This document shows, piece by piece, positions 25,319 to 40,417 of a stretch of 64,000 nt of DNA. The translations under genes were made by a program, and so were the position numbers. Position 1 is the stretch's first letter, and the number at the start of each line of letters is the position of its first letter. The stretch comes from Cokeromyces recurvatus. Its lineage: Eukaryota; Mucoromycota; Mucoromycetes; Mucorales; Mucoraceae. Below the pieces are notes generated by a model. The model did no database searches. It was not told where the DNA came from and saw only the letters and a program-made list of their open reading frames with translations. The stretch covers positions 310,001 to 374,000 of the forward strand of contig NW_026251399.1 in assembly GCF_025118155.1 (NCBI RefSeq), given 5' to 3'.

Positions 25319-25924
25319 CATGAACTTGGCCAACTTATAAGCCTCTTTAATATGTAAGTTGTCTATGTACTTCTAACTTGAGAGAGAGAGAGTCTTAAAA
25401 ATAGATACATATGTATATACATATGTATATACTTGCTGATAAATATGTATGTCATTACAAAGGAAGGAATTATCACCATCACTTTATAATAAATAAAGCG
25501 AGTGTCACTTATGTTATCTTTTGAACAATAGTAAAAAAAACTAGTTCAAATCCTATAATGTTGACTCCCTCCCATCCTCTCTCGGGCCCAAGTATATAAT
25601 TAATATAAATGACTGGTTGTATCAATTAATATAACAGCTTCTTCTGTGTTATTTTGGATGATTTAGATATGTGATTCATCCTCTAAATATTATATTTTAA
25701 TTTGTTGCAACTGGCCCAGTAATATTAAAAAACTGCATCTGGCGGTATTTTAAAATAATAATAATTTTTATTGCGATTAAAGAAGAATTTTATTTAAAAA
25801 ATTAAAAAATGACCAATCAGCACACAGCATTTATATATGTCCTGGTCAGATCACTATGGAAAAAAAGGAAAGAAAAATCTTTTTGAAAATGTTGAAGTGT
25901 ATGTATAAGTGAATAATTTTTATT
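23930..25924. other. 2-kb gene-poor stretch
   Basis: No gene is supported. It contains a T run (about 25280-25314) after a CT-rich segment, ATATGTATAC-type palindromic sequence near 25406-25432, and a short minus-strand segment (about 24348-24405) with gene-like codon use but no recognisable protein. It ends at the left terminal repeat of the Fanzor element. Confidence 0.45.
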
Positions 25925-26000
25925 ACAGTATTTCTAATTCAAATTCAGAAGACGTTATTATTTTTTTTGGGCGAATCAAAATTTATTTTCAGAAACTTTG
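25925..26000 (+). repeat. Left terminal inverted repeat of Fanzor element 1
   Basis: The arm reads ACAGTATTTCTAATTCAAAT, then AGAAGACGTTATTATT, a T run, GGGCGAATCAAAA and ATTTTCAGA. It pairs with the complement of 28612-28686 and closely matches the left arm of the second element at 37931. Similarity between the two left arms continues past 26000 (TTACCTTTTTTGGA). Confidence 0.8.
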
Positions 26001-26196
26001 ATTACCTTTTTTGGAAGAGGCGAAAATGGAAATCAGACAAAGGAATTCGAGAGACAAAATGTTAGTCGAACTAAAATGCAACTGTAGGCTAACAGGTCAG
26101 CTATTTTTTTTTTATCTCTTACATGGATGCTACTTGCAAACAACCTTAAGAAGGTTTAGCTAACGCATTATAAGAAAAATCCATCTTTTGGTGTTG

Positions 26197-26218
26197 ATTT
26201 AATTGTACAATGGGAAAC
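26197..26218 (+). repeat. Target-site duplication of the LINE insertion, left copy
   Basis: ATTTAATTGTACAATGGGAA plus AC, 22 bp. It is repeated with one T/C change at 26801-26822. The pair flanks the LINE fragment, the hallmark of target-primed reverse transcription. Confidence 0.8.
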
Positions 26219-26800
26219 TGGCTCCCAATGACACGTATGGAGCGTAGTCAGGTACTCCGCTGGCGTCTTGGTTGGCTCCCTGGTGGAAAACCTTGTCCCT
26301 ATCTTTTCCATCCTGCAGTTAACCTTTCTCGTGCCCATGCTACCGAATGTCTGCACATATACCGTCGTTTACAAATGCCCAGGTCCATCAAAGATCCTCT
26401 TTCTTTCTTACTAATAAATGTTTCATCTATCTCTTCCTGGTCTGTACAATGGCCTGAAATTTGCCGGATCCTACATAAATTGGATCATATTTTCCATGGT
26501 GAAGATCTTTCTCCCACTCCAACTGATATCGGTGCTAGTTTGGTGAAATGGTTGCAATGATAAAAATGCTAGTGTTTCTGTCTTGTTTCTAATTTTTTTT
26601 TCCTTTTTATCTATCTTTCTTTCGTTTTACTTTCCTCATTATTTTTTCTTTATTCTTCAATACTTTTTTTCATTTTCCCTTTTGACTCTTAGGAGGTTTT
26701 TTTTTATTAACTCTTAACTTCGCGAACTTATTCAGACAGTGCAGTTATTTAAACTATTGTGCTCATTATGACCACTTTTTTTTCCTTTAATAAATAAATC
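26219..26800 (+). mobile_element. 5'-truncated LINE insertion nested in the Fanzor element
   Basis: A 582-bp insert lies between 22-bp near-identical direct repeats. Its frame (to the TGA at 26558-26560) reads as the C-terminus of a LINE-type reverse-transcriptase protein: LRWRLGWLPGG, then a C..H..H..C zinc-knuckle-like segment (CPYLFHPAVNLSRAHATEC) and HIYRRLQMPRSIKDPLSF. This is the type common in Mucorales. A T-rich 3' UTR ends in TTTAATAAATAAATC, a TAAA-type tail. 5' truncation, tail and target duplication together fit a dead-on-arrival LINE copy. The ATG at 26210 is part of the target site, not a real start. Confidence 0.82.
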
Positions 26801-26822
26801 ATTTAATCGTACAATGGGAAAC
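26801..26822 (+). repeat. Target-site duplication of the LINE insertion, right copy
   Basis: It matches 26197-26218 in 21 of 22 bases and follows directly after the LINE tail. Confidence 0.8.
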
Positions 26823-27249
26823 CAATTTATGACTGTACTGAGCAAATTTAAGGATTTTTTTTCTTCGATTTAGGGGTGGATTCTTAAAAACAGTCAGCTT
26901 CTCGAGCATTCGTACCATTATAGCACTACACGATGTAAGAGTGGGGCTCAAAACTCATTTTCTAATCATACCTATATCAAACCTTAGGAGCCAAAGAAAA
27001 AAAAAGGATTTGAGATCTCTTTGTCTCTTTAAACTGACAAGTTCATTTCTGTATTCAGCCAGTCTAAGAGAAACACAAATAAGTAGATAGTCTGCGCTTG
27101 AATTATATAACTAATAAGCAAGACATCTTTAGTGATAATCTTGTGATGTAATCTTCAATATATCATATCTTAATCCTATTGTATTGGATGCCAGGTCGAT
27201 AATTATGTACAAAATTTTTGCTATTTTTTTATCTTTCTTTTATTAATGA

Positions 27250-28476
27250 CATGTACACCCATATATCCTGAAGTCGAAACACTCATTGCAGCAAAAAAGC
27301 TTGCAAAACAAGAAAGCAGTTTGAAGCTTTGGAAAATTTACTGCAAAAGAACAGGCTATTTTTGAACTCTATATACACAGATGAATACACTTGCAGAGTC
27401 TCATTTTGTCGAAAGACAAGTGAACCTTCTGAAAGTGCTTCTCTTCAGTTAGATAATTTCAATCAAGAAGAGATTAATAAATATTTCAGACCGTGCACTG
27501 TAGACCCCGGCCGTAAAAAATGTATTTGTATCTTATCATGGAAACAATGATATACGAAGTCTTTCTAGTGCATAGTATTACAATATGATGGGAAATATGA
27601 ATAGACTTAAAAAAGAACACAAAAGAAAGCAAGAATTAGGTTTAACTAAAATTGAAACTGATATCCCAACACCAAAAACAGTATCAACAGAAGATTACCT
27701 TCAATATGTGACATACATGATGGAGCATATGAGCCGCTTATTTGAATTTTATGGGTTTAACACTGCAAGATAACGATGGAAAAAACTATGTTGGCTCTCA
27801 AATCGCTATAGAAACAAGCGTCAATATTTTGTTAAATGGAGGTAATAAGAATAATAAGAATAGAAGAAAGAATACGAAGAGAAACAGAAGAAAAAGAAGA
27901 AAAGCCAGAAGGGCTGAAGACAATCAAGAGGAACAAGCAGCTGCTAATTCACAATTGAAAAGGTGTAAGAAGAACAAGAGCTGTTTCGAAGAAGGCGATC
28001 ACAAGAAAATGCCTCTTGTAATCTTTGGTGATGGCCTTCAAAACAAGGATCACATCAAATTCAAAGGTCTTCGACGCGGCGTTTCAAGCAAGATGTATGG
28101 GCAATTAAAGCATAGAGAGAGATTTGGAGAGTTGTTACTTTTAGATATTAATGAGTATAAAACCTCCAAGGTTAGTACAACGATGTTCATATATCACATG
28201 TCCTAAACAGCATCCTTATAGATCTGTAACTCTTGCTTAAAACAAGACCTCAAAGATCTGAAATGTGGGGAAGGTGACGATGTCAAACGAATCCATCAAG
28301 CATTGAAGTGCAACACTTGCAATATTTTTTGGAATCGTGATGTGATGACATTCAAGAATATGTTTCTGATTGCTTCCTCAATTTGGAATGGGAACGATCG
28401 CCCTACTATCTTCACACGACAAAGCGCCACCTACAATGTGGTTGCCACGTCTCACTCCGGTGAGGTGCTGGCTTAA
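27250..28476 (+). pseudogene. Decayed Fanzor (eukaryotic TnpB/OrfB homologue), copy 1
   Basis: Three frames together give a Fanzor RuvC nuclease. RuvC-I is CTVDPGRKKC (about 27500). The conserved middle includes YYNMMG, IETDIPTPKTVS and a YMMEHMSRLFEFYGF helix. A basic NKNRRKNTKRNRRKRRKARR block follows. RuvC-II is LLLDINEYKTSK with its Glu. After a 51-bp GT-AG intron (28171-28221) comes the zinc ribbon ICNSC...LKCNTC, then RuvC-III WNRDVMTFKNM with its Asp. Damage: a frame change after about 27525, a TAG near 27573, and a frame change near 27775 consistent with one extra A in a run. The usual NAAxN after the RuvC-III Asp is altered to MTFKN. Fanzors are RNA-guided DNA endonucleases carried by eukaryotic transposons. 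Codons before 27329 are hard to place. Confidence 0.8.
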
Positions 28477-28611
28477 AGATTTTACAGGTAAGAAGTCTTT
28501 ACGAAAAAAAAATAGCAATTTTTTTTTCTGAATCTCATCTAACGTTCTGTCCCTCCTTTGTCCCATTTTGCATCTGTTTCTGAATTTCCTTTTTTTTATT
28601 CATAAACAAAC

Positions 28612-28686
28612 TATATGAAAATTAATTCTAATTTGTCCAAAAAAAAAAAATACTAACATCGTCTGAATTTGAAGTAGAAATACTGT
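28612..28686 (+). repeat. Right terminal inverted repeat of Fanzor element 1
   Basis: It contains GAAAATTAATTCTAATTTGTCC, an A run, then TACTAACATCGTCTGAATTTG and AAGTAGAAATACTGT. Its complement aligns with 25925-26000, and its direct sequence aligns with the right arm at 39776-39845. Confidence 0.8.
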
Positions 28687-28869
28687 GCGGACACTTTTCA
28701 TCGGATTAATGATATCCGGACAATATTCTTTTTTTGGGGGAGGGAATGAAAAAGTTGGGGGGGGGAGAGGGACGAGAGGAGTCATGGACGCCAAATTTGA
28801 CTGAGTAAAGACTAAACAAGAAAGCAACTTCAATTAGAATCTTTCTCTTTCCGAACAAAACGTAGCGAG

Positions 28870-29562
28870 ATGGTAAGATGATCATTCATCCATTACAATG
28901 AAAGATAATAGATGGATGTTATACGAGTTAGAAATAGATAGAATAAGAAAAAGAAAAGGGATAAATGAATAACGAAAAGAATATGACCATGGATAAATAT
29001 ATTCATATTAATTTTTTACAATTCGCACCTGTCATTGACTTTTTTTTTTCTTTTTTTCTTTCTTCGTTCTTATTTTCCCCTCTCTCTCTGCCTCGACATT
29101 AACACTACTGTTCGATATTATGGATAGGCATTATTGATTATTTCTATTCGTATAGCATTCATCATTGTCAAAATATACAATTCAGTTCATTAATTTATAT
29201 TTTTTAAATGAAATAGCCTAAACAAATCAAGGATATTAAGGAATTCCTCGAAATTGCCCGTAGAAAGGACGCCAAGTGTAAGTTTATTTTTATTTTTTTT
29301 GTTGAAGGAAACAAATCTATTTGTTGAGTGATTCTGATTTTTTTTTTTATAATAGCTGCTCGTGTTAAGAAGAACGCTGACTCTGTCAAGTTCAAGGTTA
29401 GATGTTCTCGCTACCTTTACACTCTTGTTGTTAAGGATAAGTCCAAGGCTAACAAGCTTAGACAATCTCTCCCTCCCTGTAAGTGTTGATTGAATGTTAC
29501 AAATGAGAAAGATTACTAATATTAATTATTTTAATTTAGCTCTCGTTGTCAATGAGATCTAA
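28870..29562 (+). CDS. RPL38: 60S ribosomal protein L38 (eL38), 69 aa
   Basis: Four exons (28870-28872, 29217-29277, 29356-29478, 29540-29562) join in phase. The first exon is only the ATG, with an intron directly after it, a pattern seen in other fungal ribosomal protein genes. The product starts [20 protein letters not shown] and contains [16 protein letters not shown] and a LRQSLPPSL tail, matching eL38 along its full length. Codons are strongly biased to C- and T-ending forms (GCT, AAG, CTC) as in highly expressed genes. The remnant Fanzor element ends about 180 bp upstream, so the core promoter lies between its terminal repeat and the ATG. It is convergent with the GID8-like gene. Confidence 0.96.
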
Positions 29563-29704
29563 ATGGGTTAACAATATGTTCGTTTCAGTATAAATTTTTT
29601 TTGTGCACTTGTAAACCAGACACAATAAAAAACATTTGTATTTGACTGCATATTTTTCCAAAAAAAAAAAAAGAATAAATCATTTTATTATTTACTTTAA
29701 TTGT

Positions 29705-30647
29705 TCATTCGCTTAATTCATATTCTTCTGAAAATGATAACATGTCATTAGTAGCTTCCATTCTAAGTTGATCTTTAACAACATCAATTTGCATTAAAAT
29801 TCTCTCAACACCTGAAGTTAAGGGCATGTTGCGTAAAACCATTAAAACATGATTAACATAAATAGCCAATTGATCACGAGCATCTTGAGTTAATAAGTGA
29901 CTAGATGGAGATTGATAAGGATCTTCATAGGCTATTAAAGGTGTTACTTGGTCCAAATATATTCTGTCTTCATCTGATGCTGGCCTTAAATGTGCTTGTG
30001 CGTAACTAAGAGCTTCTGCAAAAGAAGAAGGTGTTACACATCTAATGATCTCTATAAAATGTTGGCATTTTAGCTGAAATAAAACACTTCGCAAGTGGGG
30101 AATAAATGATGGATGACTAGGTGAAATGGATTCATGCATAGCTAACAATGGAAAATGATTTCTAATTATGTGTAAGGCCATTTCAATATTGCCCTGTTTA
30201 ATAGCATTGCTTACATCTAGGTAATAGCAGGTCATAATGTGAGCATATGACTAATAATAGTATTATTCTATATTTCTTTACGTTGTCTTTGTTCCACCCA
30301 ATTCCAATAAATAGGCCCTTAAAAATAGATACATACAGACATATAAGCATATAATTACTCTATAATAGAATCAAAACGATATTCTCACCTTCATGATAAT
30401 CCGTCTTTACTTTAATAAAGAAAAAATAAAAAAAACATGAGTCAATTACAGAAAAAATACGAGTGATAATAACCTTTCTACTAAATGTGTTACCATATTT
30501 ATGTTCAAATTTGCTAATACTTTTCAGAAAGGCATTTGCTGTATTTCGATATTGTTCATGAAACAGGTATTCCATGACTAAACCATCAGACATTTGCCTT
30601 AAATGGATTTCATCGTGATCTATTATATTAGTAGTAGTGTTATCCAT
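29705..30647 (-). CDS. LisH-CTLH-CRA protein, GID8/RanBPM-like subunit of a GID/CTLH ubiquitin ligase, 245 aa
   Basis: Four exons (30474-30647, 30389-30404, 30282-30317, 29705-30216) join in phase, with micro-exons of 16 and 36 bp. A LisH motif lies at about residues 17-50 (LVMEYLFHEQYRNTANAFL). CTLH begins at RQHVSNAIKQGNIEMALHII, and CRA covers the C-terminal half (FIEIIR, EALSYAQAHLRP, LIAYEDPYQSP). Length and order match GID8/TWA1, the scaffold of the CTLH E3 complex that in yeast degrades gluconeogenic enzymes after glucose return. The wording of the CRA segment also recalls RanBPM, but no SPRY domain is present. The first donor is GTTATT, weaker than its neighbours. Confidence 0.85.
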
Positions 30648-31152
30648 ATTGAATAAAAAAAAAAGGAAACTAATTTAGGAAATATTTCATTTTAGTACAT
30701 ACGAAAAAATTATATGCAGATAATGTAGCAAGTAAAAGATTGAAATAAATAAAATAGACTCAATCAAAATTATACTCTTCAAATCAAATATGATATAACA
30801 ATAATAAAATGTTGTTGTTATGGATACGTATTACTAATAAATGATTGGATAAAAATTAAACTGGAAATACGAATCCAATCAACATTTGAAAGTGTGTACC
30901 TGAATAAGAAAATCCATTTTTTTTTATGAACCCCGCATTTTATACTATTCCAAATAAATTGTAAGCCTTTTTTTTCTCCTTTATTTCTCTTTTTCCATTT
31001 TTTTTTTTTGATTGGAAAATATAAAATTATATTTATTTAAATATTTATATTTAAAAAGCAAGAAAAGTAATATAGAATTATATTTTATTTCTACTTTTTT
31101 GTTTCTATTACAACACAACAAACAGAGTCACAATATATAATAGTAATATACA
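30648..31152. promoter_or_regulatory. Divergent promoter region, GID8-like gene and desaturase
   Basis: 505 bp separate two divergent start codons, so both promoters must lie here. The sequence is AT-rich with T runs (about 30915-30930 and 31000-31010). No specific operator is recognised. Confidence 0.5.
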
Positions 31153-32895
31153 ATGACATTTTCAAGAGGTAAAATAGATGCCAGTTTTTGGGAAAAAAAA
31201 TTTTTTTTATTAATATCTCCTTTTTATTGTGCCACTTCACATTAGAACCCCAACAATTCACTCGGAAACAATTGGAGAAGATGAATCAAGCTGTAAAGGA
31301 TGGTGATAAAGATGCAAGGAAATGTATTATCATTGATAATAAATTATATGATGTGACTGAATTCATTGAAGATCATCCTGGTGGTGAAGCCGTTTTAATG
31401 ACTCATATAGGAAAAGATGCATCAGGTAAGCAAATATTTCTTCTTTCTTTTTAACTAGGAAAAAAAAAGAGTAAGAAGAAAGTATGTACTCACGTTATTT
31501 AATATATATATATATGTATAGATGTCTTTCATGCTATGCATCCAGATACAGCTTATGAAATATTAGCAAATTATTATGCTGGTGACTTACTGCCTGAGGA
31601 GGTAGAGGATGACAGAAAGTTGAATATAGATGAAAATAATAATTCTATCAAGTTTGCCGCTGAAATGCGTGAGTTACGTGATAAGCTTAAAAATGAAGGT
31701 TATTTCCATGCCAGTAAACTTTTCTATGTTTACAAGGTTTTGTCTACTTTGGCTATTTGTGGTGTTGGTTTAGGTCTTTTGTATGCTTATGGACGTACAT
31801 CTACATTGGCTGTGGTAGCTTCTGGCTTTATTATTGGTATATTTTGGCAACAATGTGGTTGGTTGGCACACGATTTTGGTCATCATCAATGTTTTGAAGA
31901 TCGTTCTATGAATGATATATTACTTGTTTTTCTTGGTAACTTTTGTCAAGGCTTTTCATTATCATGGTAAATATATTAAATAGAAGAAGACCTATTATAT
32001 TCATATTCATATTCTTATATATAAATATACTAGGTGGAAAAATAAGCATAATACACATCATGCAAGTACAAATGTTCATGGTCAAGACCCTGATATTGAT
32101 ACTGCGCCTGTTTTATTATGGGATGAGTATGCCTCTGCAGCTTATTATGGATCATTAGATGAAGAACCTAATATGATTTCACGTTTCCTTGCTCAAAGTG
32201 TTTTACCCTATCAAACACGCTATTATTTCTTTGTTCTGGGTTTTGCTCGTATTTCATGGGCTCTTCAATCTTTGCTTTATTCGTTTAATCAAGGTGCCAT
32301 TAATAAGTCTGCTCAAATGAATTTATATGAACGTGGTTGTCTTATTTGTCATTGGATTTTATTTACTTATTGTACAATTGCATGGAATAGTAGTCTTTAT
32401 AATATGGTTCTTTTCTTTTTAATTAGTCAAGCTACAACTGGTTATACTTTGGCACTTGTATTTGCATTAAATCATAATGGTATGCCTATCATTACAGAAG
32501 AGAAAGCAGAAAAGATGGAATTTTTTGAAATTCAAGTTGTAACTGGTCGTGATGTATCCATGTCACCTTTAGGCGATTGGTTTATGGGTGGATTAAATTA
32601 TCAAATTGAGCATCATGTAAGCACTTCTTTCCGCCCCCCTCTCCCCCTTTTCTTTTTTCTTAGTTTTTTTTTTCTTTGTTTCCTTCATTATATACTTAAT
32701 TATTTATAATAATAGGTTTTCCCTAATATGCCACGTCATAACCTTCCTAAAGTAAAACCAATGGTGAAGTCACTTTGTCAACAATACAATATCCATTATC
32801 ATGATACCAGCTTTTTCAAAGGAACATTAGAGGTATTAAAAGCTTTGGATGTCACATCAAATCTTTCCTTACAACTAAGTAAGAAGGCTTTCTAA
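31153..32895 (+). CDS. Cytochrome b5-fused front-end fatty acid desaturase (delta-6 type), 467 aa
   Basis: Five exons (31153-31168, 31246-31425, 31522-31966, 32034-32616, 32716-32895) join in phase. An N-terminal cytochrome b5 domain has DHPGG at about residue 48. The three histidine boxes are HDFGHH (about 181), HNTHH (about 218) and QIEHH (about 403). The Gln in the third box marks front-end desaturases. Two hydrophobic pairs separate the boxes. Length and overall pattern match the delta-6 desaturases of Mucor and Rhizopus, which make gamma-linolenic acid from linoleate in the ER using the fused b5 as electron donor. Regioselectivity is inferred by resemblance; a delta-8 or sphingolipid activity is not excluded. 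An intron falls directly after QIEHH. Confidence 0.92.
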
Positions 32896-33432
32896 AGGAG
32901 GGGAGTTCGAGTCTTTATTTAATATCCATTCGTTTATAACAACAACAATAATAATAATAATAATAATAATAAAAACATAAGTTTTGGTTGAAGTCATTAT
33001 TCATGAAATTAGCCACCAACAACAACAAGTTTAATACATTATTTACCGAGCAGTGAGTTTTTTAATAAAATGACGAAGTAGTCATAGTAATGGTAGTGAT
33101 GGTGATATCTAAATTAAGAACATAAACAAAAATTTTGAATTCCCGATGTTCATTTCTACTGCACCCTTTTTTAAGAAAAAAATAAACAATTACACACAGT
33201 TTTGTAACACTACATTTTACTGGCAGCACATGAAACTACATAATAATAATTAAACGTACTAATAAACACCATCTGTCTATTTACTCAAAATATACATATA
33301 TATATATAAAGAAATTTGACATGTATATTAATACGATTTTTTTTTCTCTCTTTTCTTCCACTTTATACCACCCATTCATTCTATATCCTTTACTACACTC
33401 CTTCTTTTTACACCCTTCAAAAAGAAAAAAAA
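32896..33432. other. Intergenic, AAT microsatellite
   Basis: It holds the 3' UTR of the desaturase, an AAT/CAA repeat (about 32939-32972) and AT-rich sequence up to the next start codon. No gene is seen. Confidence 0.5.
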
Positions 33433-33870
33433 ATGTTTCTACAACAAATACCTTTCATTCGTCATGTTATTCAACATATTACAAACAACTTTACAGACGA
33501 CGACAAGGAATACAACAATGATAAAGACAATAACTATAATGATAACGACGACGACGACGACGACGATGACGACGACGACGATAATGACTCTTTTTTTCGA
33601 TATGCGCCATCCTCTATTTATTCAACAGAAACATTTGATTCTGTTACTACAACAACAGAGACACTTTCAACTCAAGATGATAACAGTTCTTCTATCTTTG
33701 AAAAATCTTATGTTTCATTCCCAGAATTTATTCCCTCATCGGCATCTACTACAACTACTACTATATCAAATAGAGTTTTGTTTACTATGCCTGAAGTCGT
33801 TACCATTACTGCCACACCCTTATTTTGTAATACACCTCATTTCGAGCCTATCTGGAATAGAGCTTATTAG
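33433..33870 (+). CDS. Hypothetical protein with poly-Asp tract, 145 aa
   Basis: A single-exon frame starts at an ATG after an A-rich leader. A GAC/GAT repeat encodes a run of about a dozen aspartates near residues 38-50. The rest is Ser/Thr-rich (SVTTTTETLSTQ, SSASTTTTTIS) with two short aromatic motifs (SFFRYAPSS, FEKSYVSFPEF). No family is recognised. The other two plus frames are also long here because of the simple repeat, so this call rests on the ATG context and the ordered C-terminus. Confidence 0.4.
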   Translation: MFLQQIPFIRHVIQHITNNFTDDDKEYNNDKDNNYNDNDDDDDDDDDDDDNDSFFRYAPSSIYSTETFDSVTTTTETLSTQDDNSSSIFEKSYVSFPEFIPSSASTTTTTISNRVLFTMPEVVTITATPLFCNTPHFEPIWNRAY

Positions 33871-34093
33871 TATAAATCAACCATAATAATTAAAAGAAAA
33901 AAGAGAGGCAGCAAAATATATCAATTGACAATGAACAAATTGTAAAAAAAAAAGAAGAAATTTCTTTTGTGTAAATAATAAATTAATGAGACTGGATTCC
34001 ACTTATATTTTATTATAGTTATTTATAAATAAAATAAAATAAAATAAAAAATAAAAAGAGAGACCGAAAAAAAAAAAGACAATATTAGATTTA
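33871..34093. other. Short convergent intergenic region
   Basis: A-rich 3' flank of the poly-Asp gene and of SHO1 on the other strand. TAAAA repeats occur near 34026-34050. No gene is seen. Confidence 0.4.
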
Positions 34094-35265
34094 TCAAGAG
34101 AACTAAATATAAAATAATTTTAATATATAAATATATATAAAAAGGAGAGATAAAATAGGACTTACATAATTACTAGGGACGATACCAATGTCACCATTTG
34201 TCTTACGTGCATGCCACCAATTTCCTCTTCTATCTACAATATCTAATATTTCTCCTTTTTCAAAGCTTAATTCTTTTGGATCTTCTGGATTTGCTTTATC
34301 TATCAGTCAATCAATTAATTAATAAATAAATAAATAAAAATAAATGAGTAGAGAAATTATCACTTTACATTTATGAATGGCTCGAGCTTTTTCTTTAAAT
34401 TCAAGTACACAAGTAGATAATTTTTGATCTGTTATATTCGACATAAATGAAACAGAGGCATTAGACTGATTAGCACCATCTATTCATAGATCGATAAATA
34501 AATAAATAAAAAAGAATTGTTTAGAGTTCTTCTCTTTTCTTTCTACACACACGCACACATACACTTACAGATTAATTTATTTCCTTCAGAATGCATTGTT
34601 TTATTATTATTATTATTAGAAAGTTGCTGTCTTGATTCGTTTAATTTTTCTTCTGAATAAAATGCGTCATGATCATTAGAGGATATGGATAAACATACAT
34701 TTTGATCTGTGGAAGAATGATATCCAAGTTGACCAAAGAAGGTGGAGGCATCACTTCCAAAGATAAGAATCCAAACATATTGAACTATTAATAAAATGAT
34801 ATAACCACTGACATATGTATTAGCTGGTATCTTGGGTAAACTTTGTCTACTAAATTGCATAACTGCATCTATTTGTACCGTTAATAATGGAATACTTGTA
34901 GCTAAAAATGCCAACATCTATTTTTAAAATTATTTTGATTTTAACTTTATTTGTATTATCCCCTTTTTCTTCTTTTATTTTTATTTTTATTTTTTACCGC
35001 CATTTTATATTTTCGTGCAGTGCCCGATACAAAAATGAAGAGATGTCCAAATGTAATTAAAAATTGATAGGCGACTACCCACCAAGCTCCATTTAAGACT
35101 TTTAAAGCAATCGCTCCTCCAAATGATATACAGCAACCACACTAAGAAAATAAATAAATAAATGTCACGCACAAAAATCATTATAATTATTATTACCACT
35201 GCTAATGTACTTGTAATTAATAAAACTGGTTTTTCTCTCAATTTCCTAAATGAAAATTTTGTCAT
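34094..35265 (-). CDS. SHO1: Osmosensor SHO1: four membrane segments plus SH3 domain, 271 aa
   Basis: Exons 35197-35265, 34998-35141, 34569-34917, 34369-34479, 34166-34299 and 34094-34102 join in phase. Four hydrophobic segments ([11 protein letters not shown] joined to [68 protein letters not shown]) precede a linker. A C-terminal SH3 domain follows ([44 protein letters not shown]). This is the Sho1 layout: a plasma-membrane scaffold of the HOG pathway that binds Pbs2 by its SH3 domain. The final exon is only FS-stop (9 bp), placed by a strong GTAAGT donor after PSNY; reading through instead would add about 20 hydrophobic residues. Confidence 0.92.
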
Positions 35266-35979
35266 TTTTTTTTATTATATAAATATGTATAAATAAGAAG
35301 AAGAATAAAAAAAAAAAAAAAAGAAAAGAGGAATAAAAGATCTTCTTCTTTTTTTATACGTAGATAAGCTTTTTATTTTGGTTAATTGGAATTTATATAA
35401 ACATTAAAAAATACGGAGGGGGGGGGTAAAATCATTCTTTAACTTACGGGAAACTTAAATAAACAAAAAACAAAAAAAAAAAGTCAAAACACATACGAGT
35501 ATTTGAACATAAATGTAATAAATGAAAAAAGTTACCTTTCTTTCTTTCTTTCTTACTTTCATCTTGTATACAGATATATATTTTCGTCGTTGTCTAACAT
35601 CTTCTTCTTTAAAGAGATGCATTGTTCATGTATAAATATGTATGCGCACGGAAGTTATTACGAAAAAAAAAGAGAGGGGTAAGAGAGGAAAAAAAAGGAG
35701 AAGTATATATGCGTGCGCGCGCGTGTGTATGTGTGTGTGTGGAGAGAGAGAGAAAAAAAAAGAGAAAGTAAGTTTATCGAACAAATATCTACATATATAA
35801 CCATATAGCGTTAAATTAAGCGTACATAACTTAAAACGTAAATGTTAATATAAAATTTTATTAATTCATATATGAAATAAGAACGAGAGAATAAATAAAT
35901 AAATGACAAAATGTAGAATGATCAATGGATACAAAAAAAAAAAAAAAAAAAAAGGGAATGATATTATAATTATTTTTTT
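35266..35979. other. Intergenic, simple repeats
   Basis: Promoter side of SHO1 and 3' side of the arrestin gene. It holds GC/GT/GA microsatellites near 35710-35750 and an A run near 35933-35953. No gene is seen. Confidence 0.5.
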
Positions 35980-37302
35980 TTAACTTGATATTTCAACAAT
36001 CTGTACATGGTTATTAGAAGTGGCTCCTTCATGATAATCGGGTGGTAAAACTTCACTATTATAAGCAGGTAAAAACTCTTCTTGTTCTTCTTCTTCTTGA
36101 TTAGGTATGGGACGAAGAAATTGAGGTTTCGAATGGATAGAGGCAAGATTTTCAACAATAGCGGAATAAGATTCTAATTGTCGAGGCGCTCTTGTACCAG
36201 CTGGTAAAGTACCAAAGACAAGAGACATATCGAAAAGTTTTTTCTTTACATGAATAGGCCCATGACGTACCTTAACAGTGATGACAAGTTTATATTCAAT
36301 TTTTAAATGTGGAGAATAAATTAAGGTTGCAGGAAGTTCACGAGGATGTAGATTAGATAAATCTAAATTGATCGTCACAGTACTAGGACACATAGTAGGT
36401 AATTTAGGATAATCATAATCTGCAATGATAGCTGTTTCACTTCTTGAAAACGTTTTATAGTTAATGTTATAATATCTTTTTATATAAGCTCGAAGTTGAG
36501 ATATAGAAAAATACTGTTGCTGTTGCTGTTGATCTATGAATGAATCTGAATGATAAAATTGTATAGTAATCGGAATAGATTGATTTTTATCCAAGACATT
36601 ATAAGCTAAACGAGGAACAGAGACTTGGGCTATGATATGATTTGTGAGTCGATTTTCTTCAATAAAGGCTTGTTGATTCTTTACAGGAAGTGTTTCAATA
36701 ATGGGTTGAAAGTAAACAGGAGCTGGTTTTGAGAGGATAGGGGATGTTTCACCCGCTTTATTAACTGAGACAATCAGTTGAAAGTTAATAGCAATAAGAT
36801 GATGATGAAAGGTAGGAGGAAAATTAATGACAGGCATTTGACAAATAAATGGGAAATGATAGTCTCCTGGTTCCAAGATAGGCCAGTCCTCTATTGGAAT
36901 TTGAAGACCAGAGGGTAATCCCCAAAGGATAGTACGTACTGCAAATAATCGATCATCATGTAAATTTGATTTTTCCCATCCCATAGCGTCATAATTGACT
37001 CTTTCTGTTTTTTTTATTTTTATTTTTATTTTTATTTATTTTTTATTTATTATTATCATTATTATTATCATTATTATTATTATCTTCCTATTAAACGTAC
37101 ATCATCTTAATTTACCAGTTGCTTTAAATACAAGCTTAATATGATGAACCGACATAGGGGCTAATACTTTCATTTGAACAACTCCTTCAAATACTGAACC
37201 AGGATGACAAATGACTCGGCCTTCTTCATTTTGATATTGAGGATAAAACATAATATTAAAGTCAATATTGGAATGTTTTGTCCTCATTAATGAAGCCATC
37301 AT
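35980..37302 (-). CDS. Alpha-arrestin (arrestin-related trafficking adaptor) with PPxY motif, about 403 aa
   Basis: Exons 37116-37302 and 35980-37004 join in phase across a 111-bp intron. The N-terminal arrestin sheet reads NIDFNIMFYPQ, GSVFEGVVQMKV, HHIKLVFKATG; then LEPGDYHFPFICQMP is the typical arrestin core motif. The C-terminal lobe has LIYSPHLKIEYKLVITVKV. Near the C-terminus LPPDYHEG gives a PPxY motif for WW domains of Rsp5/NEDD4 ligases, with LPAYNS just before it. The role is selection of plasma-membrane transporters for ubiquitination and endocytosis. The start is uncertain: the frame stays open upstream of the MMASLMRTKH start used here. An acidic EEEEQEEF tract lies before the PPxY. 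Confidence 0.88.
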
Positions 37303-37930
37303 TTTTTTATTGTTTCTAGGACTACGTTTACTGTAGCCTTCTTCTTTAAATATTAATGATAACAAAAGGAGAACTTTATAAAAAAAAAGATATAAATAGA
37401 CAGAGAATAGGTGATGGCAGAACAATAAAAAGTTCTTACTTCTTTATAATAAATAAATAAATAAATAGATAAATAAATAAATAAAGAGAATAAATATGCA
37501 TAAATTAAATTAAAATAAAATAAGCTAATATTATACTCAGAGAAAGTCAAATGAATCTCACAAGTCACTAAAAAATCTTAAAAATCTTAAAAAGGAAAGA
37601 ACGATATAAATTTAGTAATTTTTGTATTATAGTGTGTGTGTGTGTATGTGTGAGGAGAAAGATAAAGAAAGAGGATAGAGGCAGAGAAATAAGTATAAGC
37701 TATTGTGTCACTATAGATACAAACATGCAGTATTTTTTCATATTTATTATACTACGGTTGTCAAGTGACTTATATTATGGTATACAAACATTATTATCGA
37801 TTCTATGACTAAATATACTATAGCCAATCATATTGAAATGAAGACATCATAAACAGGCCTTCATTATTCATGAAATAGAATTGAATAATACAACTGTTTA
37901 AGAATGTGAATATCAACAATGAAATAATAA
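37303..37930. other. Intergenic, upstream of the arrestin gene
   Basis: TTTA/AATA repeats near 37446-37490 and a GT repeat near 37631-37653 stand out. A frame with an ATG at 37568 could hold a 5' exon of the arrestin gene, but nothing requires it. The region ends at the left terminal repeat of the second Fanzor element. Confidence 0.45.
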
Positions 37931-38003
37931 GCAGTATTTTTACTTCAAATTCAGACGATGTTAGTTTTTTTTTTTGGACGAATCAAAATTTAAATTCAGA
38001 CAA
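37931..38003 (+). repeat. Left terminal inverted repeat of Fanzor element 2
   Basis: The arm reads GCAGTATTTTTACTTCAAAT, CAGACGATGTTAG, a T run, GGACGAATCAAAATTTAAA and TTCAGAC. It matches the left arm at 25925 and the complement of the right arms at 28612 and 39776. Confidence 0.8.
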
Positions 38004-38085
38004 TTTGTTTACCTTTTTTGGATGAAGTAAATACAAAATTTAAACAGATTGAAGCTTATGCTTAGGCATCTTACATGTAAAAATC

Positions 38086-39070
38086 TTAAACCCTAAGAGT
38101 ACCTGTGTTTACTACGGTGATTTTGTTTCTTGTTTGAGGTTTGAAAATCGGTAGTCTTCCTTTTCCTGACCAGATTGATTTAGAAATAACCATCATATTC
38201 CGGGCAGCGTTGACATCTCTCTGCCAAAGTTTGTGGCAGCTTTGGCAAGACACTACACCATCCCCCTTGAAATTGGACGTGCTAACAGTTTTCAAACTAA
38301 GAGAAAGACAGAGGCTGCAAGTTTTGGAGATATTGAATTCGTCAATTGCTACAACAATTAACTGACCTTCAGACTCACGTCTTTTCAATATTTGATATAA
38401 TTTACCGACAACACCACATCTCAAACCTTTCATCTTTGCAAGGTCTTTGCCAAACATTCCAGCTCCGAAGACAACCAGTGGCACCTTCTTTTTGTTTTCA
38501 TCGAACGAAGCTGCTCTCCATTTTTTAGTTCTATTACATGTGTTTAAGCAAATAGTACAGACTAAAATGAAATGTTTCCTTACTTTGTCCTTTCTGGTTT
38601 GCTTACTGTCTTGTCTTTCCTTCTTCTTTGCTTTATTCTTATTTTCGCCTTCTTTTTCTTTTTATCTCTTTTTGAGCGATTATATTTGGCAGTACCATGT
38701 GTCAGCATATTCGCCATTTGTTGAGGGGTCCTCTGTAGATCTTGATATAAAGAAAAGCGATCTCTGGCATCACCTACACTATAAAAGTTGAGCAAAGCAA
38801 AGCATCTAGATTTTCAAACATATATTCTACATGATTTTGGTATGTGGTAAATAGAGAAGTCTTTGGTGAAGGAATATTGCTTTTAATTAAACTAATGCCA
38901 GAGAGTGCTTTCTTGTTATTCAATTGCTTTGTATATCTTATGGAACCAGTCATATGGTAGTATTCTTTTAACCATTTCCTAGTCTAGAAATCAATATATA
39001 CTAACTATGTATGACCCTTCACAAGTCTATTATTTGATAGCTGGATTGTAGATAATACTCTGGAAGACTG
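38086..39070 (-). pseudogene. Decayed Fanzor, copy 2
   Basis: The C-terminal part is intact on 38086-38530: VPLVVFGAGMFGKDL, RuvC-II AIDEFNISKTC with its Glu, zinc ribbon CSLC...SCQSC, RuvC-III LWQRDVNAARNM with its Asp, and tail SIWSGKGRLPIFKP. A 53-bp GT-AG intron (38531-38583) joins in phase to 38584-38795, which holds FYSVGDARDRFSLYQ and a basic KYNRSKRDKKKKKAK block. Upstream, EYYHMTGS and SNIPSPKTS continue the same protein, but a tandem 5-bp repeat (CAAAG twice, 38793-38802) breaks the frame, and stops near 39040 interrupt the expected RuvC-I segment. The start is not defined. Compared with copy 1, the RuvC-III and zinc-ribbon residues are better kept. Confidence 0.8.
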
Positions 39071-39192
39071 TCAAGCAGACTAATACTTACTTGGGCAAAA
39101 GAAGTTTTGATCTGTCTGAAATAGAAATTGATTATATTCTAAGAAAATAGAAAAATTCTGAAAACCGTTTTTTTTTTTTTTTTTTTTTTTTT

Positions 39193-39663
39193 TTGAAAAG
39201 ATTGAACAAATGGAGACCCCATGTTTATAAAGAAGACAAAACAAAAGTTCCGCTAGTCGTCCTCGATAACGGTATGTTCGGAAAAGATCTTGTCAAGCTA
39301 AAAGGGAACTGGTGCGGGGCGGTAGGCAAGCTATTCAAGACGTTGAAAAAGCGAGAGACTGAAGGTCAACTGATCGTCACAACGATCAATGAATTTAAAA
39401 CCTCTATTACATGCAGTCATTGTTTTTTCGATAAGCAAGAAGTCATAAACATTTCCGGTTTCAAGGGCTGTGGTGTTCTCAGTTGTCCAGAATGCGGAAA
39501 AGTATGGCAACGGGATGTAAATGCTGCTTTAAACATGAAGACAATCTCGAAGGCAGTTTGGTCAGGCCAAGGAAGACCAGACATTTTTAAGCCAAAGAAG
39601 AATACTACCAATTTATCTGAAAGACGTTTGTGCCTAAACCCCCCCCTCGTATCGCCGTATTAA
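39193..39663 (+). pseudogene. Fanzor, copy 3, 5'-truncated
   Basis: The frame carries only the C-terminal part: KVPLVVLDNGMFGKDLVKLK, RuvC-II TTINEFKTSITC with its Glu, zinc ribbon CSHC...SCPEC, RuvC-III VWQRDVNAALNM with its Asp, and AVWSGQGRPDIFKP. It starts just after a T30-like tract ending in GAAAAG, at the position where copy 2 has its intron 3' splice site. The truncation may therefore lie within that intron. RuvC-I and the recognition half are absent, so it cannot encode a full nuclease. The reading frame is undamaged over 150 codons. Confidence 0.8.
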
Positions 39664-39775
39664 AAACGGTTTCCTTTTCTCAAAGGATTAAGATCATTAC
39701 AGGTAAAAAAGTTCAAACATAAATCTCAATTCGTCTGAAAACTAATTCTTTTTTGTCTCAATTTCATTTCTTATT

Positions 39776-39845
39776 CTTCTGAAAATTAATTTTGATTTGT
39801 CCAAAAAAATACTAATATTTTCTGAATTTGAAGTAGAAATTCTGC
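39776..39845 (+). repeat. Right terminal inverted repeat of Fanzor element 2
   Basis: It contains TCTGAAAATTAATTTTGATT, TGTCC, an A run, TACTAATATTTTCTGAATTTG and AAGTAGAAATTCTGC. It matches the right arm at 28612-28686 directly and the left arms in complement. Confidence 0.8.
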
Positions 39846-40417
39846 AAGCAGTAAAAAAAGGAAGGGCGCCAGGTTAAAGAGGAACAGAACCCAAAAAAAA
39901 AATTAAAATTAAGCTTCAGCCAATAAAATAAAAAGCATATGCTAAGCATTTACTACAAATAAAAATATCATTCTATTTCAACTACTAGTTACATGTCGCT
40001 CTATTACGTAATCCTTCATACTACTGCAATAAACATATGATCGTACTGCTTTCTCCTTCCTTTCGTCTCTCTCTTTCACCACCAAATATGTATACATATA
40101 TTATGGAGCCATGACGTGATAACGTATATTATACAAAATATTCCAGTTTCGGTTATATAGCTTTAATTCCTGTCAAATAGTTAGTTTATAATAATCAATT
40201 ATATGCATATAGATATATAAATGAATTTATATAACCTGTTTCATAGTTGTTATATAACGAATCATTTTAACCCATTTCACCCCAAAAAGAACATAAAATA
40301 GTGTATTTTAGAATTAAATAAGAGGAATACTTTAATTATATTCTAGTCTTGCTTAAAATGTGTCACAATATTAAGAATACATCAAAAAAAAAACTCGTTC
40401 TTTAAATAATTTTTGAT

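Follow-up and report, generated by a model that had tools for sequence, protein, structure and literature searches.

Fanzor1 elements of Cokeromyces recurvatus with a predicted omegaRNA scaffold and one-sided flank motifs

What does a Fanzor (Fz) nuclease do for the eukaryotic transposon that carries it? This question is raised by a 64,000-nucleotide stretch of the Cokeromyces recurvatus genome (the window; contig NW_026251399.1, positions 310,001 to 374,000), where three Fz copies lie in two elements bounded by terminal inverted repeats (TIRs). The best overall explanation, which we consider probable, is that these are Fanzor1 elements on a Tc1/mariner-type chassis, with an omegaRNA scaffold and a retention function. 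The Fz identity, the TIR family, the covarying scaffold and the one-sided flanks are robust; mobilization in trans and homing or retention are what we infer, and splicing of the omegaRNA is speculative and rather doubtful. In the contig numbering used here (C1 onwards, with other places given as contig:position) the window is C5:310001-374000 of a genome of 28.05 Mb in 64 contigs, and labels such as L001 or L085 denote individual loci taken from that genome.

The first step is to establish what the window encodes. The two elements and their coding remnants are as follows.

25926 to 28685, plus strand: Fanzor element 1, with a group A Fz, from the left CAGT to the right ACTG (sequence, TIR profile)
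27272 to 27550, plus strand: Fz remnant with RuvC-I (VDPGRK), 60-93% identical to sibling copies and carrying the DPG motif
27733 to 28206, plus strand: Fz remnant with a basic block and RuvC-II (INEYKTS) (sibling matches, motif reading)
28222 to 28476, plus strand: Fz remnant with zinc ribbon and RuvC-III (NRDV), stop codon at 28474-28476 (sibling matches, motifs)
37932 to 39844, no single strand: element 2, a composite with two right ends, two divergent Fz and no left end (sequence, blastn)
38086 to 38661, minus strand: Fz C-terminal remnant with RuvC-II, zinc ribbon and RuvC-III (PF07282 in frame 38089-38661, E = 1.9e-9)
39151 to 39663, plus strand: Fz C-terminal remnant of a second subfamily (PF07282 in frame 39151-39660, E = 2.7e-11)

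The original prediction, made from the sequence before any search, held that three frames encode the RuvC and zinc-ribbon part of a Fanzor, and this is borne out. The Glu of RuvC-II ([DN]E[FY]), the C-x2-C pairs and the Asp of RuvC-III (RDV) that it named can be read directly in all three, and element 1 adds the DPG of RuvC-I (VDPGRK), which a sibling on C9 shares and whose region is missing from the element 2 remnants. The suggested hidden Markov model check gave a significant PF07282 match in two of the three; the element 1 pieces (27272-28473) have no Pfam Fz match, and there the assignment comes from 59-93% identity to sibling Fz copies (80-93% to the closest). A C-terminal D...[TS][TS]xx-C4 zinc finger-RD motif marks Fanzor1 (PMC3627910), and DPG at RuvC-I is a feature of Fanzor and not of TnpB (PMC10711439). 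The window holds both the C-terminal zinc finger-RD motif (with PF07282) and DPG at RuvC-I.

A sibling at C9:296166-299580 (3415 bp, with TA before CAGT at both ends) can be read as a gene of six exons and 788 codons with one in-frame stop. Its five introns, placed by eye, keep the frame (donors GTCAGA, GTACGG, GTAAGT, GTGAGT and GTATAA; acceptors ATAG, ATAG, ATAG, GTAG and TTAG). Twelve proteins share 38-54% identity with the encoded protein, and 11 of these bear the names Mucor, Rhizopus or Helicostylum, from which a mucoralean host is very likely; a 720-aa Mucor flavus protein (P0001) is 49% identical to it over 92%. The P0001 model (mean pLDDT 58.5, RuvC half low-confidence), which represents a relative and not a window copy, served for family assignment only; a structural search with it at E<=0.001 returned Fanzors only (seven chains of PpFz, SpuFz and GtFz, Parasitella first), with TM scores of about 0.3-0.4 and 13% identity in the match to PpFz1 of Parasitella. 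The Fz of the window family have zinc-knuckle-like motifs at the N-terminus, which we set down as a difference from PpFz1, for which the source reports a Fanzor RuvC insertion domain (PMC11423790). Across the genome, PF07282 gave 70 matches at E<=0.001, of which 60 exceeded the cut-off, and the Fz remnant at 38086-38661 gave at least 159 matches, the best 150 of 209 candidates having been scored.

Do these Fz copies share a mobile chassis? The four element ends were located as follows.

25925 to 26017, plus strand: left TIR of element 1, Fz-distal (nhmmer, E = 2e-19)
28603 to 28686, minus strand: right TIR of element 1 (nhmmer, E = 9.7e-16)
37932 to 38024, plus strand: right-type TIR on the left side of element 2 (nhmmer, E = 2.7e-22)
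39776 to 39845, minus strand: right-type TIR on the right side of element 2 (nhmmer, E = 9e-13)

All four are copies of one repeat, as had been claimed: the outer inverted arms are 91% complementary over 44 nt in element 1 and 86% over 43 nt in element 2, and one profile of about 95 positions matches all four. The repeat is therefore longer than the ~70 bp first given, and the elements placed at 25925-28686 and 37931-39845 are both real, with exact ends at 25926-28685 and 37932-39844. A genome search with the terminal pattern CAGTWTTTMYACTTYAAATTY (21 nt, up to 2 mismatches) gave 120 matches against 2 for the reversed pattern, far beyond chance. A second TIR family, TACAGTCNNNGAAACTAGGTTGGGCC, gave 127 matches (up to 3 mismatches) against none reversed and carries further Fz groups; the transposon end sequences are TACAGTWTTTMYACTTYAAATTY and, in the second family, TACAGTCNNNGAAACTAGGTTGGGCC. 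We then took 34 Fz places (two of them in element 2), chosen by protein or family independently of the TIR; the TIR profile had been iterated on the same loci. A TIR lies no more than 700 nt behind the Fz C-terminus at 28 of the 34 (both of element 2 included), and four of the six places without one belong to other Fz groups. This linkage is the opposite of a repeat unrelated to Fz at other loci, the outcome named beforehand as fatal to the proposed family.

Several observations concern the TIRs themselves. A window-family TIR at L085 (C53:6100-9000) has beside it, at about 834-1301 on the minus strand, a third Fz lineage that is divergent (FIDPGRRGMLF), and therefore one chassis carries distant Fanzors. 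Three loci (C1:2223407-2225660, C3:17222-20867 and C49:4276-5925) have one end of CAGTWTTT type and the other end, or its outermost part, of CAGTC...GGTTGGG type; from such sequences the two families seem to exchange ends. Short second-family TIR pairs of about 110-350 bp (C30:24886-25236, C23:982949-983086, C53:14412-14523 and C23:337058-337226) can be read as MITE-like (miniature inverted-repeat transposable element) or ghost elements. Some elements or ends on different contigs have identical flanks (C21:282948-286457 and C43:158694-162101; C18:85343 and C27:313631; C10:179692 and C15:163913) and can be read as duplicates that the assembly retains, either of haplotypes or of segments.

Which transposase would act on these ends? 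At 30 scored ends, CAGT follows TA 21 times, TG or CA six times and another dinucleotide three times, and no duplication longer than TA was seen by eye at paired ends. Because TA precedes CAGT at most ends and no longer duplication accompanies it, a pattern characteristic of Tc1/mariner, the termini suggest that superfamily and point away from MuDR. The superfamily, which the termini had been thought not to reveal, is thus narrowed. In the window the dinucleotides are TA (25924-25925) and TG (28686-28687) at element 1, and AG and CA, with no TA duplication, at element 2.

MuDR-type Fanzor elements, as in Rhizopus, Phycomyces and Mucor, offer another assignment; these hosts belong to the same fungal order, and long TIRs with subterminal repeats would fit. 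The 9-bp duplication of that type was not found at paired ends, whose flanks were read by eye, and most scored ends carry TA, so we consider MuDR highly improbable here. Known mucoralean Fanzor elements, which like the present ones carry Fanzor1, are ROr-4, PBl-3 and MCi-4 (MuDR type, 9-bp duplications) and the unclassified MCi-2 and MCi-5; their duplications are of 9 bp, 11-12 bp or 6 bp, in contrast to TA here, and MCi-2 and MCi-5 lack recognizable TIRs, unlike the long TIRs of the present elements (PMC3627910). The Tc1/mariner assignment has a precedent in Fanzor1-only elements such as PUl-4, in which Fanzor1 is also the sole gene, with Mariner-type TIRs and TA duplications (Bao and Jurka 2013, PMC3627910). 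The present elements differ in that a non-exhaustive search found no Mariner with the same TIR and two TIR families have more than 100 matches each; a predicted omegaRNA scaffold and a TAM-like flank signature, described below, are further differences.

A point that weighs against the Tc1/mariner chassis is that the search, which was not exhaustive, found no transposase with these ends. A genome search with DDE_3 (best 150 of 403 candidates) placed none of the matches listed inside a TIR pair by coordinates. Five Tc1-type loci, four with clear other TIRs and one without, gave no match to the TIR profile, and seven TIR loci without annotated Fz yielded no transposase by open reading frames and tblastn with two Tc1 proteins; a divergent Fz was present in one of the seven. 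At a further locus, where a DDE_3 match lies close to a second-family TIR, the other end was not found, and there was no agreement of ends. The prediction had described a Fanzor family bounded by TIRs in which no transposase is visible, and this description is supported; the Tc1/mariner assignment is what we infer from the ends, no transposase with either TIR having been found in this search. Just left of the window, at C5:309570-309779, there is a match to a Tc1/mariner-like transposase in a 450-aa open frame; at L081, a copy with the same score, the TIRs begin TACACTATTTC, unlike those of the Fz elements.

Has the Fz left a mark on where elements persist? We set the end classes (left, Fz-distal; right, Fz-proximal) by Fz orientation, with Fz places taken from the PF07282 and Fz-remnant searches. 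For the window family, 93 of 100 listed places were used (33 right, 18 left and 42 unclassed). An A at -4 (ANTA before CAGT) occurs in 14 of 17 distinct left flanks versus 6 of 32 right flanks at the mirrored place (Fisher p = 3e-5). Among the 100 listed places of the second family (33 right, 30 left and 37 unclassed), T at -3 occurs in 29/30 left versus 16/33 right flanks (p = 1.5e-5), and A at -4 in 22/30 versus 8/33 (p = 1.3e-4). A motif resembling a target-adjacent motif (TAM), ATTA or ANTA, is thus enriched in Fz-distal flanks and not in Fz-proximal flanks. Elements that target TA are not expected to distinguish between their sides. A nuclease that has its TAM on the left and takes its guide from the right does distinguish them; a TA-targeting transposase with like ends has no cause to. 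Judging from these flanks, the Fz has probably shaped which insertions persist.

The same motif could instead reflect the target preference of an asymmetric transposase, with the Fz as a passenger. Left and right TIRs are indeed not quite alike, left ends commonly reading CAGTCAA and right ends CAGTCGA, and of four short elements seen with these ends one has AT before TA on both sides, two have it on a single side and one lacks it altogether. Two TIR families have different left motifs (ANTA and ATTA) in the same side relation to the Fz, and elements targeting TA should not tell their sides apart; we therefore regard a passenger Fz as unlikely.

In the mechanism that we favor, a transposase encoded elsewhere would move the Fanzor1 elements in trans. 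A complete element would comprise a left TIR, a multi-exon Fz gene, a scaffold of ~50 nt, 71-200 nt including the right TIR, and then the flank. The RNA would carry guide sequence from the right flank, and the Fz would cut the same locus when the element is absent, given a left-flank TAM (ATTA or ANTA). Repair from the occupied copy would restore the element, making the Fz a retention and spreading device. In SpuFz1 elements of Spizellomyces punctatus, CA precedes the left inverted repeat (IR), a one-sided rule of the same kind (PMC10432273). Those elements resemble the present ones further as IR-bounded Fz1 with tens of copies, many of them gene-less, and with conserved bases upstream of the left IR (PMC10432273). 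ATTA contains ATT and is compatible with the ATN TAM of PpFz1, a resemblance only (PMC11423790). The one-sided motif in two TIR families is genome-scale evidence from a eukaryote that Fanzor activity shapes transposon persistence.

Behind each Fz, at or overlapping the stop codon, lies a unit of ~50 nt that consists of hairpin 1, hairpin 2 and a linker, TTWAGATTNTTACAG. The three window copies are given here, with a slash at the proposed scaffold end.

28421 to 28490, plus strand: predicted omegaRNA scaffold of element 1, two hairpins and TTAAAGATTTTACAG/GTA, overlapping the Fz 3' end (covariance model R1, E = 1.1e-3)
38072 to 38123, minus strand: predicted omegaRNA scaffold of the leftward Fz of element 2, ending ...ACAT/GTAAG between 38075 and 38074 (R1, E = 7.8e-14)
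39649 to 39705, plus strand: predicted omegaRNA scaffold of the rightward Fz of element 2, ending ...ACAG/GTAAA between 39702 and 39703 (R1, E = 1e-14)

We aligned 15 representatives of seven labelled types (B1-B6 and D), to which element 2 contributes two. Pairing holds in 91.2% of the cells of both stems, cells with changes on both sides number 19 versus 6.0 in shuffles (0/500 as high), and the covariation score is 0.469 versus 0.225 (0/500); slid versions of the alignment, used as controls, gave 0-3 changed cells. For 11 representatives, none of 2000 base-shuffled upstream regions reaches the summed length of hairpin 2, and 0.1% reach that of hairpin 1. In the 64-kb window, R1 at E<=1 has three matches, one behind each Fz on the same strand and nowhere else. 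Both element 2 scaffolds are members of the R1 training set; the match behind element 1 belongs to group A, which is absent from it. Over 85 loci R1 gave 36 matches at E<=0.1, including the untrained groups A and C, and no match in groups E (L006, L008, L101 and L103) and F (L001, L005 and L102). At ten group A right ends, the match is in place at seven (three at E<0.01, four at 0.09-0.21).

Some results weigh against this assignment. Pairs changed on both sides number 5 versus 3.6 in shuffles (82/500) and further pair types 13 versus 12.4 (232/500), so that two of the five measures are not above shuffles; R1 misses three of the ten group A right ends; and the published stem-loop 1 (SL1) has seven base pairs where the predicted scaffold has five or fewer (PMC11423790). 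A conserved element with a predicted RNA structure is nevertheless present at the nuclease 3' end on the matching strand, groups E and F lying outside the model, and the two-hairpin element is probably an omegaRNA scaffold. Its predicted order of hairpin 1, hairpin 2 and guide agrees with the published SpuFz1 and PpFz1 omegaRNAs, in which SL1 and a single stem-loop 2 (SL2) are followed by the guide; PpFz1, from Parasitella parasitica, is likewise a mucoralean Fz1 with SL1 and a very short SL2 before the guide (PMC11423790). Rfam gave no match at E<=1 within 25800-40000. A likeness between these loci and a published PpFz target oligo was discarded, since 8 of 100 shuffled oligos were as good or better.

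How could such a scaffold meet a guide that lies beyond the TIR? The scaffold ends at a sequence resembling a 5' splice site, which in element 1 is the following.

28488 to 28493, plus strand: candidate 5' splice site GTAAGA, directly after ...ACAG (sequence, covariance-model match)

An ACAG/GT-like site lies behind the Fz in four groups of elements. In the window family, a fuzzy motif search found the scaffold end ACAG/GTA 71-200 nt before the element end at 37 ends, with G at +1 in 34, T at +2 in 37, A at +3 in 37, A at +4 in 30 and G at +5 in 22. The exact CAGGTA occurs, in outward orientation, 74-230 nt from the end at 32/39 Fz-proximal ends versus 1/32 other ends, although the match to the left in element 2, counted among the 32, is a different CAGGTA from the donor copy. 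Donor bases in other groups are GTATGC in D (9/11; two ATATGC), GTAAGT in E (4/4) and GTACGT in F (2/3; one GTTTGT). Each of the four groups also has an AG 0-12 nt from the element end: most window-family ends have GAAG and GTAG, group D has CCTAG and mostly CCCAG, group E has either CCTAG or TCTAG, and group F has TACAG at the very end. The right TIR of element 1 contains TACTAAC and GAAG and GTAG, candidate acceptors ending at 28674 and 28677.

Because the scaffold ends well inside the element, we propose that the spliceosome may remove the intervening TIR; the donor-like site, the terminal AGs and the one-sided flanks are the grounds. An intron would run from the donor ACAG/GT at the scaffold 3' end across the TIR, with a branch-point-like CTAAC, to an AG at or near the element edge. 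With the TIR spliced out, the scaffold would meet the flank-derived guide. We hold this tentatively, as a possibility with the odds against it. Splicing, if true, would let long ends that bind a transposase coexist with an omegaRNA that has to adjoin its guide, and would account for a possible capture of Fanzors by transposons with very different ends.

In group F (L001, L005 and L102; C14, C28 and C45:1132450) the copies diverge right after ...GAAAAATACAG/TA, AACAG/GT(A/T)(C/T)GT lies some 140-170 nt upstream, and the acceptor-like AG would form the last bases of the element. In group E (L006, L008, L101 and L103) an extra intron-like stretch (GGGTAAGC...CAG) seems to lie just before TTTACAG/GTAAGT and would leave a micro-exon of ~21 nt.

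Several facts count against splicing. The fuzzy motif itself contained GTA, so that conservation at +1 to +3 is partly selected, and two of the 37 ends are not behind an Fz. The stretch before the candidate acceptor is poorer in AG than shuffles, significantly so in the window family and also in some copies from other groups, but this depletion was rejected as evidence: right and other ends are nearly alike (medians of 51.5 and 33.5 nt, p = 0.06; observed/expected ratios of AG 0.73 and 0.67), and the depletion is therefore a property of the TIR. The left TIR carries a mirrored counterpart of the branch-point-like CTAAC in the right TIR. Outside group F, 4-12 nt of the element would stay between scaffold and flank after the last AG, and a joined guide would therefore not match the uninterrupted empty site. 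The Spizellomyces scaffold extends across the IR with the guide immediately behind it, unlike the scaffold predicted here, which stops 71-200 nt before the edge (PMC10432273). A literature search, mostly of open-access papers and with supplements outside its coverage, found no report of a spliced Fanzor RNA.

The rival to splicing is a contiguous omegaRNA, whose hairpins would continue through the TIR to the element edge, with ACAGGTA as a conserved single-stranded part and nothing spliced. The SpuFz1 scaffold has such a form (PMC10432273), the GtFz1 omegaRNA measures 150 nt with extra stem-loops (PMC11423790), and neither the AG nor the branch-point comparison gave a signal specific to right ends. 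However, the stretch from ACAG to the end varies from 71 to 200 nt and is largely TIR, GT(N)NG is found again in four groups whose +4 bases differ, and the Parasitella Fanzor, the top structural match, has a short scaffold of SL1 and a 4-bp SL2 before the guide (PMC11423790). We rate a contiguous RNA a serious contender, just short of an even chance. Alternatively, the donor-like site may be a 3' exon trap, through which a terminator-less Fz mRNA would splice into downstream host exons for polyadenylation, the guide being uninvolved. The site lies just after the stop codon of a gene that itself reads as spliced (five introns keep the frame). The site coincides exactly with the point where the covarying scaffold stops, and all four groups have AGs close to the edge of the element; both facts speak against a trap, which we think quite unlikely.

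Relative to the known systems, the covarying two-hairpin RNA behind the Fz, the one-sided TAM-like flanks and the splice-site-like scaffold end are new here. What Fanzors do for eukaryotic transposons becomes testable through defined ends, a predicted scaffold of ~50 nt, predicted TAMs and a splicing hypothesis.

The window elements are not intact representatives of this layout. The two Fz remnants of element 2 belong to different subfamilies and point outwards, and both are broken by their sequence. By blastn, a relative at C1:1147958-1152160 (4.2 kb) has two matching segments, one of 1255 bp at 96% and one of 681 bp at 94%, and their order is inverted; between the flanks of the two elements there are only short low-complexity, repeat-like matches. 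Since the elements match and their flanks differ, the two-right-end composite probably moved as a unit, and element 2 would then have lost its middle. Neither copy has a TA duplication, which counts against movement as a unit. Among the loci inspected, the two-right-end arrangement is confined to this pair; C4:615797 and C1:2234304, similar at first to a designed twin with two Fz, were then read as separate elements.

Element 1 is decayed, its sequence showing an Fz broken into three pieces. It also contains an insertion related to a long interspersed nuclear element (LINE).

26219 to 26822, plus strand: LINE 3' fragment (RWRLGWLPGG...) inside element 1, approximate limits (sequence; related tails elsewhere)

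We read this fragment as LINE-like and 5'-truncated; a target duplication of ~22 bp (26197-26218 and 26801-26822) accompanies it. Element 1 is longer than its 2.2-kb siblings at C9 and C38 because of this insert. A tail 85% identical to its tail lies in an element remnant at C6:556420-556737, and similar LINE-like tails, for which a target preference was considered, occur beside several other Fz elements.

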